Position numbers and translations under genes: made by a program
NCBI RefSeq assembly: GCF_008831285.2
Contig: NC_045138.2
Coordinates: 27,437,934-27,501,933 of the forward strand
Direction: 5' to 3'
Source of the DNA: Nymphaea colorata
Lineage: Eukaryota > Streptophyta > Magnoliopsida > Nymphaeales > Nymphaeaceae
Length of the DNA stretch: 64,000 bases
The notes under the pieces: model-generated
The model's database searches: none
Told to the model about the DNA's origin: nothing
Seen by the model: only the letters and a program-made list of their open reading frames with translations
In this document: in pieces, positions 27,225 to 38,539 of the stretch
Position numbering within the stretch: the stretch's first letter is position 1
How the letters are laid out: each line of letters begins with the position of its first letter

Positions 27225-30200
27225 TCAAACACATCCTTGTTCGATCATGGCCTGAGCAAGATTGAGGAAAGCAGAGATATTCCCCCCATGAACCAAAGCC
27301 CTGAAACATGAACAAAGCAAAAACAGCACAAAAGTTCAAATGCGATTCTGGATAATGTCCATGAGTTCCATCCTACTCACACCAGAGAATTATTGCACGC
27401 TAAAAGGATGAGGGTCATTGCTTGGCTCAATTTAAGGGGGGCAGACTGCCAAATGAGAATATTGGTTTCATCCTGATATGGCTACTCCTTCCAAAGGAAG
27501 AAGGTTAGAACCAAATCCCAGACAGGCCCCTAACACTCCATTACATAAAGTGCAATAACTATAGCCCTTTAAGTTGAAACTAGAAAGAGTTATTAGTTGT
27601 GTGGTGAAGTCAAAACTTGTTACTAATTTGTGCATAAGAAAGATCTATCAGTCCAATGGAACACATTTGCAATATTCTTCTGAAAATAAAAAAAAGGTTT
27701 GCACCTAGAGCATACAATTTTTTAAACAATTGGCCGTGAGATTCCCTAAGGACAGTACACATAATTGCAAAATAAGGAAAACATTGAAGGATCCATACTC
27801 TGGGTTCTCTTTCATGAATCCATAGTCACTGGCTGCTTTTACAGATTTCTGGTAGATCTGCTTCATGGATTCCTAAAGTAAAATGAGGAAATGGAACATT
27901 AGTAACAAAGTATGGCAAGAAAATCACATTTATTGTTGACTCAACTAAATGCTACACTGATATATTGTTGACTCAACTAAACAGTTTTCACAAAGTAACT
28001 TACTAAGCTGTACTTATAGAGCCTTGCCTAGAGAAAGCAGGTCCTAGGTTCCCCTGTAATGAGGATTACTAAAGATGAAAACATTTAATTACACGCAAAA
28101 GGATTCTGCTCCACTTACCTATTCTAGGAATCCAGGCATGGAACCAAGTTCCCAGGAAGGGTTCAAGAGAATTTTACAAGCAACCTATGGGCCCAGCAAG
28201 AATTCACTTTAACGAGAATTTTAACCTATAGTATCGAAAAAGACATTCAATACACTCAAAATTCCAATTTCCAGCAACTGAGAGAGAGACATTAGTTCTT
28301 GGTCACAGAGGTAAGATACTCTAGTTCAGCAAGAAAGAATAGCAAAAAGGAAAATGTTCACCTAAGGTATTGCCAAATTACCATCACTTTGGCATCATCA
28401 AATCAGCTGATCTGGACTTTCAATCAAACAGCAGTTTGTCCAGACCTAAGTTGCACCATGGTTAATCCCTACTTTCAGTTCTTCAGGATCAGATAACATG
28501 CACAAGCATGTCTTCCTTGTAACTCTGGTTATATTGCTAGCCAAAGGAGAAATAACCAGATCCCAATTTGTGGAAAATTAGAAGGAAAAAGAATAATCAG
28601 CTCTGTAAAAGATGGAGAAGGGTCACTTAAAGGATCTCACAGCGTAATTGTCGATACTCACAAAACAACTGGTAGGAAATGCATCCACAATAATTCTATT
28701 GGATTTGTCTTAGTCCACTTTAGTTAATTAAGAATTATGTTCCAGAGAAAAGTTAAGAATTCATTGACACAGATAAAACCCTGCTGATACCGCTGGCACA
28801 TAGCAACACTGAAAACAACAAATACATTAACATAAATTATGGCATGCTAAACCCCAGAAAAATTAAAAGGTTGTTAAGGAACAATTGATGCAAAAAAATA
28901 ACCTGTAATTTACTTTCAAACTCCTCTGGCGACCAGTGTATTGAACTACAGTCTTGACTTAATTCAAGTTCTCCTACACCAACCTGCAGAACATATGTCA
29001 GACACTGGATTTAACATCAAAATTCTAGAATATGAGGTACCTTAGTCTTTTTTGGTGAACAGTGCAATATGGTTAGCCTTAGTAAAAACTACTAAAAACA
29101 AAGGGGAAAAAACCTAAAAACTCCAGAGATTGGTCTAGATAAGATTTACAGCCTTGCACGTATTAGGCACTTTCTAATTAAAGGGAACATAGAAGCTAGC
29201 ATAACAAATATCAGAATTAAAATAGAAGACCAAAAACATAGATACTAAAGACACAAAATACAAGGAAGCATAAAAAGAATCTAGCACTGGAAGAACCAAA
29301 TGCCATTTTGTCAATTTTCGCAAGTTTAGGCAAGAATTGAACAATGCATTGTAATACTTGGATGTGAGAAAGTACTACAACTTGGACATATCACGCATTC
29401 TTCAACTGCTCTGGACTCGGTAGTTTCTACACTATTACTAACAAGATAAGGTACCACAACTCTAAACCGTAGAACATATGACAAAGACCCATTAACATTT
29501 TTAAGGCATTTAGTGATACAAATGATTTCATCAGCAGCAGCAGAATATGATGGCTAGAATCGCTAGATCAGCAAAGGTGCAAAATTTAACTTAGGGCTGT
29601 TTGTTTAACAGGCATCTGAAATGAAAATGCCAATAAGGCTGTTTGTTTGACAGGCATGTGAAATGAAAATGCCAAGGTTCAAGGACTGTTCCATTCTTTT
29701 CAGTTGGAAACCAGTGGACTCCAGCTTGCACGACCATATTTTACATCCCTCTCCTTGGCTCTCCTTTGAGAGATGTTCTCATAGAGATCCCAGAATGGCT
29801 TTTATTTTATAAATTTTGTTTCATTCCCATCATTTAAGTTTCCGATTCCGACATCTTGTAACAAATGGACCCATGAGATTCTCAGATTCAATTAATACTT
29901 CATGGCACAGCTTGCCATACAAAAAGCAAAAAGAGGAGTGAGAGAGTGTGTGCGGTTACTCATATGTCCATACCCCTCCTGCACTTGCAGCCTTTGCTGG
30001 AGCAACCAGGACTTTGGCCTTCCGGAGCACATCTATAGCCTGTGGAGTGCATGGCATGTTTGAACCTAATAATGTATGACCATAAATTTTATAATAAAAA
30101 ATCCATTGGTAGAAAAAAGATGTAAAAACAAGTACTGCATCATGATATAATATGTACCTTCTATCAGGATACGGCAACCAGAATTAACCAAAGCTAATGC

Positions 30201-36200: not shown

Positions 36201-38539
36201 CATAATTCTTCAACCTTAACAGAGTATTATATGAAAACAACTGACAAAAAGGAGAAAAGTGAAGGCTGATATGAACTGCAAATAATCACGGAACAGATGT
36301 ATATGCTAAATTAAGGTCATGGAAGGAGTGACCAACGAGAACTACCTGTTCAAATGCAAGAAACTTGGCAGTACTTAAATTCATATTTGGATGATATCTA
36401 AGACCGCCTCTACAAGGGCCCAATACTTGGCTGAATTGTACACGAAATCCTCGGTTTACATGTGTCTCTCCCTTATCATCAACCCATGGGACTCGAAACA
36501 CAATGGTCCGCTCAGGTTCCAGTAGGCGTTCCAGAATGTGGACAAACCTAGAGATAGGCAACACATGGTCAAAGTTCATGCTTCACAGTGCCATGCCCTT
36601 TATTACATTAACCATTTTTGAAGTAATAACTTGCATGGGAAATCTTGAAAACCAACAAATATGCAATTGGCTTATGTAGATACTCACTGAGAACTCTTGG
36701 CTAAGACGGGCTCTAGGGAATGAACCACTTCTTGAACTGACTGTATGAATTCAACTTCATGAGGATCTCTTCTCAGAACTGCTTCAACAATGGATCCAGC
36801 AGTTTTGGACATTAGAGCTGAATGATTATGAATAAACATTCAGTGGCATGTCCATTGCCCACCAGATATAAGGAAATACCAGAGTAAATAAGGAAGTCCA
36901 GGAAAAAGGCTCAAGAAAATTTTATATTCTCTACATAGTTAAAACATGTATATAACTTGAATAAGCATAGTATAATTGCTTACTAAGGCAATGTACGGGC
37001 ATCATGTTTTATAACACTTGGTAGGATGGCATAGTTGTGGTGATATCATTTATACACCAAAAGACATGCTGATTAAGACATTTATTTTTCAACTTTTAAC
37101 ATGTCATCCCTACTGACTTAAAAATTGCTTCAATCCTCACTGAGTTTGTAAAATATAATGAGGTTAATTTATACGAACAGGATCAAGGTCATACCCATGA
37201 AACAATGAACACGGCCAACAACTACTGGTAGTGGTTCATCGGGTGAATCCGATGAAAAGTAGCATTTTCCACAACATTATTAAAACCAGACTAAGTAGAC
37301 TAAGAATGCATGGTAGGACAACTATTGATCTTATTGTGTCATACAAGTTTTTGAGTTGAAAGAGAAAATTCTGAATTTTTTTTCTCTTGATGGTTTAGCA
37401 ATTGTTAGTTAAGAAGGGTGGTGAAATTTTAATCGAATCTTTGTCTATAAATAAACACACGGAAAATCCTAATTATTTCTAGTAAATAGATATTATGAAT
37501 CTGATGATAACATGATTCGAGCATATCATAATGCAACGAAGGCAGCAATAAATTCTAGCCAATATTTTGGCATTGCAGGCTAGACATCATGTTGGTTCCC
37601 AACCATATCTCCCCAATAAGACATCATACTCACTATTGGATGATGAAATTCCAGTCAATGTTCAATGGCTCAGATATGCCTCCTCTGAAATAATCTTAAA
37701 AAGGATGTTGAAAGTCTATAAGATATCAGCAATAAAATACATGATCCCAAAAAGAAAAGTTCAGAAAGAGAACATTTCTCGCTAACTGTACCCAAAATGA
37801 TTAAACAACCCTAATTGTAAAAAGCCGACATACTATTTAGGAGCTGAAAGACCACAGAATCTGTTTTTGTACTGAAAGCAACTCTAGAGCCTAGAGAAAA
37901 ACACCGCATGAACACAAAAAGTTCAGCTGATTGCCATTAGCATCATTCATCAATCAAGTAACGGTGAACCAACTTAAATTGTTTAGAACTGAGAACGAAA
38001 CAAGAGCTATTACCTTTGACATAAACTGGTCTTTCTACAGTTGCAAGGTTTTTATCTTTGGAGGCAAGTTGGAGACGAAGCGCCTCCTTGTGAAGTAAAC
38101 TATTGTTATGCTCTTCGAGCGCACTCATCTGCATATTTCTACTGCCCTCATTCCCGTACGGATTCCTCCTATGCTTTCTCCCATACTCCCTACACACTGA
38201 GCAGAATATCCTTGTTGTTCCCTCAAATACATCCACATAAGCCCACTTATACGTATCGGCCCATTCTTCCCTCCATTTCTTCACCACCTTCTTCTTCCGC
38301 TTGGTTTGCTGCAGCCTAACCAACTCTTGGTCTTGCCCGGGAGCCATGAGCAAATGCTTGTGATCTTCCTGCTCTTCGGAAGTAGGCTCCTGAGGGACGT
38401 CCACAAGCGGCGCGTGAGCAAAGGAAGGATCATCGTCGCCGGGCCCTATTTCCAAGTCGATTTCTTCCCCGATTTCACGAACTAATGGATGTCTCTGCGC
38501 TTGCCGCAAAAGATTTATCTCATCCATTGCAGAATTCAT
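27225..38539 (-). CDS. Zinc-finger-like domain fused to glutamate-dehydrogenase-type protein
   Basis: Fifteen coding exons in transcript order: 38539-38014, 36817-36688, 36547-36346, 35711-35625, 35502-35443, 34642-34556, 32842-32771, 32630-32575, 31282-31197, 30481-30391, 30315-30158, 30065-29974, 28983-28903, 27872-27799 and 27300-27225. They give 625 residues. Residues 1-175 hold an acidic stretch, a basic run ([15 protein letters not shown]) and CSVC (113-116) with H144 and H150, a CxxC...H-x5-H pattern. Residues from about 180 follow the hexameric NADP-type glutamate dehydrogenase fold: [38 protein letters not shown]-like [21 protein letters not shown], a GSGKIA nucleotide motif (412-417), CASQNE and EGSNMPCT. 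The start is [10 protein letters not shown], because a likely leader-intron acceptor lies between it and an upstream ATG. Key active-site lysines are absent (R265, R289, G301). It resembles an amino-acid-dehydrogenase-like family I recall from Arabidopsis. Enzyme activity is doubtful; the fold call is firm. Confidence 0.9.
29592..29873. mobile_element. Candidate MITE in GDH-like intron 12, duplicated terminus
   Basis: A 42-base unit containing GGCTGTTTGTTTnACAGGCA and ATGAAAATGCCAA occurs twice (from 29593 and 29635). The reverse complement of the right end reads GGGTCCATTTGTTACAAG, an imperfect partner of the left end GGGCTGTTTGTTTAACAG. The interval of about 280 bases is non-coding. It lies in the intron between exons 12 and 13. 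Confidence 0.45.
33881..34203. mobile_element. Candidate hAT-like MITE in GDH-like intron 6
   Basis: The left end AGCCCTGTTTGATAACTATG and the reverse complement of the right end AAGCCTGCTGTTTGATTCCA form an imperfect inverted repeat. The inner parts (GCAAAAGTTT / GGCAAAACCT) pair as well. The CTGTTTGATnnC end is very common among plant miniature hAT-type elements. No clear target duplication was seen. Confidence 0.5.

Follow-up and report, generated by a model that had tools for sequence, protein, structure and literature searches.

The question raised by this locus is whether a gene of Nymphaea colorata with the fold of a glutamate dehydrogenase (GDH) still encodes an enzyme that deaminates glutamate and, if it does not, what its product might do instead. 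The gene lies on the minus strand of a 64,000-nucleotide stretch (positions 27,437,934 to 27,501,933 of contig NC_045138.2, assembly GCF_008831285.2), which we call the window and whose numbering is used throughout. Its 625-residue product joins a class I GDH fold to an N-terminal zinc finger of the C17orf113 type, and glutamate deamination has most likely been lost from it. We favor, at a probability of about 0.5, the reading that it is a GDH-derived, non-deaminating zinc-finger protein, a nuclear regulator that would use the GDH fold as a ligand-gated module.

The GDH sequence of Clostridium symbiosum, identical to PDB entry 1bgv over 449/449 residues, was used as the numbering reference. 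The plant protein is identical to it at 193 of 442 residues, and R265, R289 and G301 align to K89, K113 and K125. These are the same residues that the original prediction, made by eye, had put in place of the three active-site lysines. The catalytic Asp is kept, as had been stated, as D341 (codon GAC) at the D165 position; R205, T193 and Q110 (R380, T368 and Q286 in the plant protein) and the GG pairs are kept as well. G164, beside the catalytic Asp, is E340, and N373 is S546. The loss of the serine near AGGVLVSG was correctly called, but the motif had been misread as AGGVVGVG; the spliced sequence is AGGVGVGE, which aligns to AGGVLVSG gap-free and puts G553 at the S380 position. Similarly, the G-x-G-N-V-A coenzyme motif was said to remain: it reads GSGKIA, with its glycines retained, but the third-last residue, N240 in 1bgv and invariant among the lysine-bearing sequences described below, is K415. 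According to PMC1716157, every subset of its 116 GDHs has counterparts of K113 and K125, large GDHs carry Arg where the small ones have K89, and the bovine equivalent of N240 is hydrogen-bonded to the nicotinamide carboxamide.

The earlier claim that the protein does not deaminate glutamate in the usual way is thus well supported by the sequence, K125 and other pocket residues having changed, with the loss of activity itself a prediction. The pocket, however, is less empty than had been supposed: K125 is gone, but the other two lysines became arginines, so that the charge persists there, and the Asn position of the coenzyme motif has gained a lysine, K415. Since R265 and R289 preserve charge and K415 is new, the protein may bind ligands without ordinary catalysis, or may even perform a different chemistry.

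Invariant columns were defined from 26 lysine-bearing class I sequences, made up of 16 viral-contig loci, 5 Clostridia loci and 5 solved structures. There are 102 columns invariant in this set; 85 of them are unaltered in the plant protein and 17 differ, namely K89R, V98M, K113R, T117S, L119Y, K125G, G164E, K195P, N240K, V241I, N373S, S380G, M384L, N387D, A430G, G434A and K437N. With a provisional list of pocket positions, pocket and coenzyme columns were changed in 7 of 18 cases versus 10 of 84 for all others (one-sided Fisher p = 0.011); without N240 the same list gave 6/17 versus 11/85 (p = 0.035). The pocket changes would accordingly exceed chance to a modest degree. It should be noted that the 16 viral-contig sequences were fetched with the peptide patterns KFLGFEQ and KGGSDFD; because the latter was used, the invariance of K125 in the set is partly a matter of selection, while K89 and K113 lie outside both patterns. 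For K113 and K125, the 116 GDHs of PMC1716157 give independent support.

The N-terminal part of the protein had been overlooked. A match to zf-C17orf113 (PF25431) scores 86.2 bits against a Pfam cut-off of 29.5 (E 1.3e-24) and covers profile positions 1-62 of 63, with candidate zinc ligands C113, C116, H144 and H150 that can be read from the sequence in the spacing C-x2-C-x27-H-x5-H. The first 60 residues contain 16 D/E and 3 K/R, and the basic stretch KRKKKVVKK follows at residues 80-88; in our judgement this composition is unlike that of a typical organelle transit peptide. ELFV_dehydrog_N and ELFV_dehydrog also exceed their Pfam cut-offs, and both are full length. Among solved structures the best match of the protein was 3r3j (E 1.7e-146), and the first 175 residues gave just one chance match to solved structures (E 1.2), which was disregarded. 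Compared with the canonical hexameric class I enzymes (1bgv, 5ijz, 3r3j and 2bma), the plant protein is alike in both ELFV domains from end to end and differs by K89R, K113R, K125G, G164E, N240K, N373S and S380G, and by about 175 additional N-terminal residues that include the zinc finger. Human C17orf113 and ZNF862 we take to be proteins with this finger, the animal ones presumably being derived from transposases; the plant protein resembles such proteins in its nearly complete PF25431 match and ligand spacing and differs in that the finger is fused to a dehydrogenase fold. Since the zinc finger and basic stretch of exon 1 point to the nucleus, the suggestion of a structural pseudoenzyme appears too narrow, although a pseudo-GDH is probable. 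The features that carry this reading are as follows.

36409..36411, minus strand, codon of R265 (AGA) at the K89 position, from the alignment and codon reading
35703..35705, minus strand, codon of R289 (AGA) at the K113 position, from the alignment and codon reading
35667..35669, minus strand, codon of G301 (GGT) at the position of the catalytic K125, from the alignment and codon reading
38060..38251, minus strand, zf-C17orf113 (PF25431), residues 97-160, Pfam
38276..38302, minus strand, basic stretch KRKKKVVKK, resembling a nuclear localization signal, a putative function
34577..36516, minus strand, ELFV_dehydrog_N, residues 230-357 (exons 3-6), Pfam, E 4.8e-48
27234..32809, minus strand, ELFV_dehydrog, residues 376-623 (exons 7-15), Pfam, E 2.8e-69

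An independent rebuild of the gene on the minus strand, with the ATG at 38539 and the stop codon ending at 27225, gave the structure proposed earlier, whose 625 residues, clean junctions and phases were exact; the intact 15-exon frame agrees with the view that the gene is not decayed. Chance or mis-splicing as the source of the altered residues was rejected because every junction is GT-AG and the residues concerned all lie inside exons. Exon limits are from the rebuild, joined by sequence reading for exon 1 and by the alignment for exons 6, 9, 12 and 13.

27225..38539, minus strand, whole gene, 15 exons and 625 amino acids, an open frame with 14 GT-AG introns of consistent phase
38014..38539, minus strand, exon 1, coding for the acidic N terminus, the basic KRKKKVVKK and the zinc finger
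36688..36817, minus strand, exon 2, where the GDH-like part begins
36346..36547, minus strand, exon 3, carrying R265 (K89 position)
35625..35711, minus strand, exon 4, carrying R289 and G301
35443..35502, minus strand, exon 5
34556..34642, minus strand, exon 6, carrying E340 (G164 position) and D341 (D165 position)
32771..32842, minus strand, exon 7
32575..32630, minus strand, exon 8
31197..31282, minus strand, exon 9, with the GSGKIA motif and K415 at the N240 position (codon 31260-31258)
30391..30481, minus strand, exon 10
30158..30315, minus strand, exon 11
29974..30065, minus strand, exon 12, carrying S546 (N373 position)
28903..28983, minus strand, exon 13, carrying G553 (S380 position)
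27799..27872, minus strand, exon 14
27225..27300, minus strand, exon 15 with the stop codon

The N. colorata assembly (408 Mb in 783 contigs), the one plant genome examined, was scanned for the same domains. PF25431 matched once genome-wide, in this gene, with 91 bits; the search was made in six frames, so an intron-interrupted copy might escape it. PF00208 and PF02812 found this gene, three other chromosomal GDH loci (on C12, on C1 at 19.36 Mb, and on C2) and the contigs C601 (119,860 bases) and C363 (29,620 bases), and PF00208 gave a weak match on C23. The three conventional loci retain GGAKGG (K125) and WKTAV (K113); PMKGG (K89) was seen in two of them, the corresponding exon of the third lying outside the sequence read. 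These conventional loci are class II, and their exon pieces align weakly to the plant protein (29.9-33.3% over 63-97 residues). Among the PF00208 and PF02812 matches no lysine-bearing class I GDH partner was seen. Within one genome, then, the ordinary enzymes keep their lysines and the zinc-finger protein does not, and the three conventional loci, all with K113 and K125, provide this plant with ordinary GDH chemistry. The loci on G000:C601 (L063 and L071) and G000:C363 (L064, L068 and L072) encode GDHs unlike the plant ones, and a Gln of C363 corresponds to an in-frame TAA in C601, the pattern of a ciliate-type code; both contigs are possibly foreign DNA in the plant assembly.

Loss of K125 within class I GDHs was also sought in genome contigs of 84,980 species, one genome per species, using a class I motif in which the codon at K125 specifies a residue other than lysine and has a first letter other than A. 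Replacements by Asn, Thr, Ile, Met, Arg (AGR) and Ser (AGY) escape this pattern, and its results are counts, not a fraction of all class I GDHs. It found 31 stretches, 28 of them GDH and three (L005, L024 and L029) with no GDH match. One main group consists mainly of sulfate reducers, in which K125 is replaced by Ala, Gln, His, Cys or Arg (L001, L003, L004, L009, L012, L015, L016, L020, L022, L023 and L025). Some of these paralogues have also lost D165, and most of the genomes searched hold a K125-bearing copy as well. The Desulfotignum locus L025 has V, R and C at the three lysine positions, and L023 has K, T and R together with loss of D165. The other main group is found in Clostridia and has Ser or Ala at K125 plus N373G. 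Outside both groups stand a Phycisphaerae locus (L027), two Clostridia loci (L010 and L017) and one from Streptomyces (L030). Most of the bacterial K125-less sequences retain K89 and K113.

Seven Clostridia loci have two GDH matches side by side, and in every one of them a start of the K125-less gene is possible 12-13 nucleotides after the upstream stop codon. The upstream copy shows K125 in five (L006, L007, L013, L014 and L019), whereas in L002 and L011 the contig end cuts this position off. The tandem looks like a pair of live and dead subunits. A G-rich stretch resembling a ribosome-binding site separates the GDH from its K125-less N373G paralogue in Clostridia pairs. Genomes of 15 of the 28 GDH loci were searched with 1bgv, and among the matches listed 13 of the 15 also hold a K125-bearing copy, that of G005 without D165. 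In G014, a Clostridia metagenome-assembled genome (MAG) of 1.9 Mb that also holds L010, the sole class I GDH match, L084, has Glu at K125, a variant that would not be a spare copy there unless the MAG is incomplete. In viral contigs the K125-less motif gave 0 stretches versus 15 with a lysine codon, and protein queries of viral contigs confirmed no close relative of the plant protein. In contigs labeled viral (L050, L059 and L060), two GDH motifs with the lysine are separated by some 1.35 kb; these are probably tandem GDH genes and likely host sequence.

A tree was built from 43 rows: the plant protein, 22 lysine-bearing and 20 K125-less sequences. Truncated, broken or cut sequences (L008, L017, L018, L021, L026, L028, L030 and L031) were left out, as were L039, whose retrieved range contains 13 stops, and the incomplete L045-L047; these last four were kept in the 26-row column set. 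The plant row stands beside 3r3j, 2bma and 9yis (unstarred support 89/83) on a long branch of 1.2 changes per column. The K125-less rows need at least three label changes in this tree; among the bacteria these may be one gain and two losses. An origin of the plant gene from a K125-less bacterial lineage was rejected by the approximately unbiased (AU) test, whether all 20 K125-less rows were joined with the plant (p 0.0002), only the 11-row, mainly sulfate-reducer set (p 0.0056) or the 7-row tandem Clostridia set (p 0.0006). These p values are weakened because the groups were named after the tree was seen. Since the tests reject each of these joinings, the plant loss was most likely an event of its own. 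The bacterial paralogues resemble the plant protein in having lost the catalytic lysine within a well-kept class I frame, but the AU tests reject a common clade with it, and their full-length frames of 451-500 residues leave no space for the 175-residue head. The bacterial copies suggest more than one reuse of a class I GDH fold from which the catalytic lysine is gone.

As a nuclear regulator, the plant protein would sit on DNA or on another nuclear partner, RNA or protein, by means of its zinc finger and basic stretch, and the GDH part would probably form the usual hexamer. A nucleotide and perhaps a dicarboxylate might still be bound, with R265 and R289 keeping the carboxylate contact, while glycine in place of K125 would remove the chemistry. 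The output would then be domain closure upon ligand binding, not catalysis, and the redox state or the 2-oxoglutarate/glutamate state could in this way be reported to a nuclear process. Several points weigh against this reading. The protein scores 563.1 bits against a cut-off of 536 with the NCBIfam equivalog PRK09414 (NADP-specific GDH), and automatic annotation therefore makes it an active enzyme. Its fold, hexamer and pocket are predicted from the 193/442 identities to 1bgv, its nuclear location and its binding of zinc and DNA are predictions, and the residue replacements are known from one plant genome. The Fisher enrichment is modest and depends on the provisional pocket list, and K415 at the N240 position and P370 at the K195 position make normal nucleotide binding less likely. 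Finally, among the matches listed, every class I GDH match of the bacterial genomes G001 and G014 lacks K125, so that a copy without this lysine is not necessarily redundant and dead.

The protein might instead be an active dehydrogenase for a different substrate, in which R265 and R289 would hold carboxylates and K415 or another residue would carry out acid-base chemistry with D341. We consider this unlikely, and keep such altered chemistry in view mainly because K415 sits in the coenzyme motif. Retention of D341, R380, T368, Q286 and the GG pairs would suit such an enzyme, as would the charge kept at both substrate-binding lysines and the two bacterial genomes just mentioned. Against it, the counterparts of K113 and K125 are generally retained in amino-acid dehydrogenases of this superfamily too, and the joint loss of G164, N373 and S380 resembles relaxation of a pocket more than its re-tuning. 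The residues described in PMC1716157 bear on both sides, since Arg at the K89 equivalent of large GDHs and the carboxamide contact at the N240 equivalent fit an enzyme of this kind, whereas the presence of the K113 and K125 equivalents in all GDH subsets does not. Rather less probable is a dead regulatory partner in mixed oligomers with active plant GDHs. Thermus thermophilus GdhA, a catalytically inactive GDH subunit (PMC9570180), is the precedent and may be likened to the plant protein by function, as a GDH fold retained for regulation and not catalysis; it differs in acting inside a heterohexamer with GdhB. The seven Clostridia tandems and the K125-bearing copies in 13/15 bacterial genomes, among the matches listed, would fit such pairing. 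However, the partners seen in the plant genome are class II and align weakly, which makes a mixed oligomer with an active GDH less likely; no lysine-bearing class I enzyme is among the genome matches, and the C363 and C601 sequences look foreign. Nor does a mitochondrial partner accord with the presence of the zinc finger and basic stretch.

That the annotation is simply correct, and the protein an ordinary NADP-GDH with unusual residues, is decidedly improbable. The PRK09414 score and the literature name NADP-GDH (PMC9820731) speak for it, but the three lysines and four further pocket residues are changed, the available passages on OsGDH4/AtGDH4 give no assay of the protein, and the 'plant GDH4' of the 2006 analysis in PMC1716157 is a Chlorella enzyme in which lysines K166, K190 and K202 are present. 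Most improbable of all is a slowly decaying or structural relic whose fold has no selected function. The long branch and the lost catalytic-site residues are what such a relic would display, but the 15-exon frame is clean, the zinc-finger and GDH parts lie far above family cut-offs, the pepper and Arabidopsis proteins are 78.49% identical (PMC13259437), and conservation and wide expression are reported (PMC9820731).

The gene appears to be already known under an enzyme's name: from size, domains and single copy we infer orthology to OsGDH4/AtGDH4 (Os01g0558200, AT1G51720). OsGDH4/AtGDH4 is described as the plant 'NADP-GDH', of 'class II' and better conserved than the NAD-GDHs, with OsGDH4 expressed in all tissues (PMC9820731). 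OsGDH4 is listed as Os01g0558200, an ELFV-dehydrogenase-domain protein (PMC8213353), barley HvGDH4 is placed beside it (PMC5073129), and AT1G51720 is a putative GDH reduced in cytolines (PMC7285260). Pepper CcGDH has 634 residues, close to the 625 found here; its predicted location is 'Nu/Mit', and a transit peptide is absent from the prediction. Its identity to AT1G51720 is 78.49%, somewhat below the 83.45% for GDH1 and 86.62% for GDH2 in the same table (PMC13259437). The Arabidopsis protein probably has R and S at the first and third lysine positions and may keep a lysine at the second. PMC10652781 concerns fly and human GDH and has no bearing on the plant protein. The size and domains agree with those of OsGDH4/AtGDH4, but the available descriptions present an NADP-specific enzyme and mention neither missing lysines nor a zinc finger, and no link of the protein to either was found in titles, abstracts and passages of the open-licence PMC literature. 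The product of this known gene is a probable pseudo-GDH joined to a zinc finger.

Genes of this kind are listed among plant nitrogen-metabolism and nitrogen-use-efficiency candidates (PMC9820731, PMC8213353 and PMC5073129); should the protein be unable to perform GDH chemistry, such annotations would need revision, as would models of plant NADP-GDH. A wider proposal, that land plants carry one conserved nuclear metabolite receptor derived from an ancient class I GDH, in which sensing of NADP(H) and 2-oxoglutarate/glutamate would alter zinc-finger binding, is tentative and doubtful. If true, it would be a direct link from carbon/nitrogen state to gene expression, hidden under the NADP-GDH label. 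A zinc finger on a dehydrogenase fold with arginines at the ligand site and no catalytic lysine would make 2-oxoglutarate and redox sensing in plants directly testable.

Elsewhere in the window, Pfam matches identify a Ras-type GTPase (11362-11805), 40S ribosomal protein SA (20275-20733), an F-box protein (41858-44682), which also gives an F-box-associated leucine-rich-repeat match below cut-off, deoxyhypusine synthase (49096-49437) and a DEAD-box helicase (54504-58393). The region is an ordinary gene-rich plant region.

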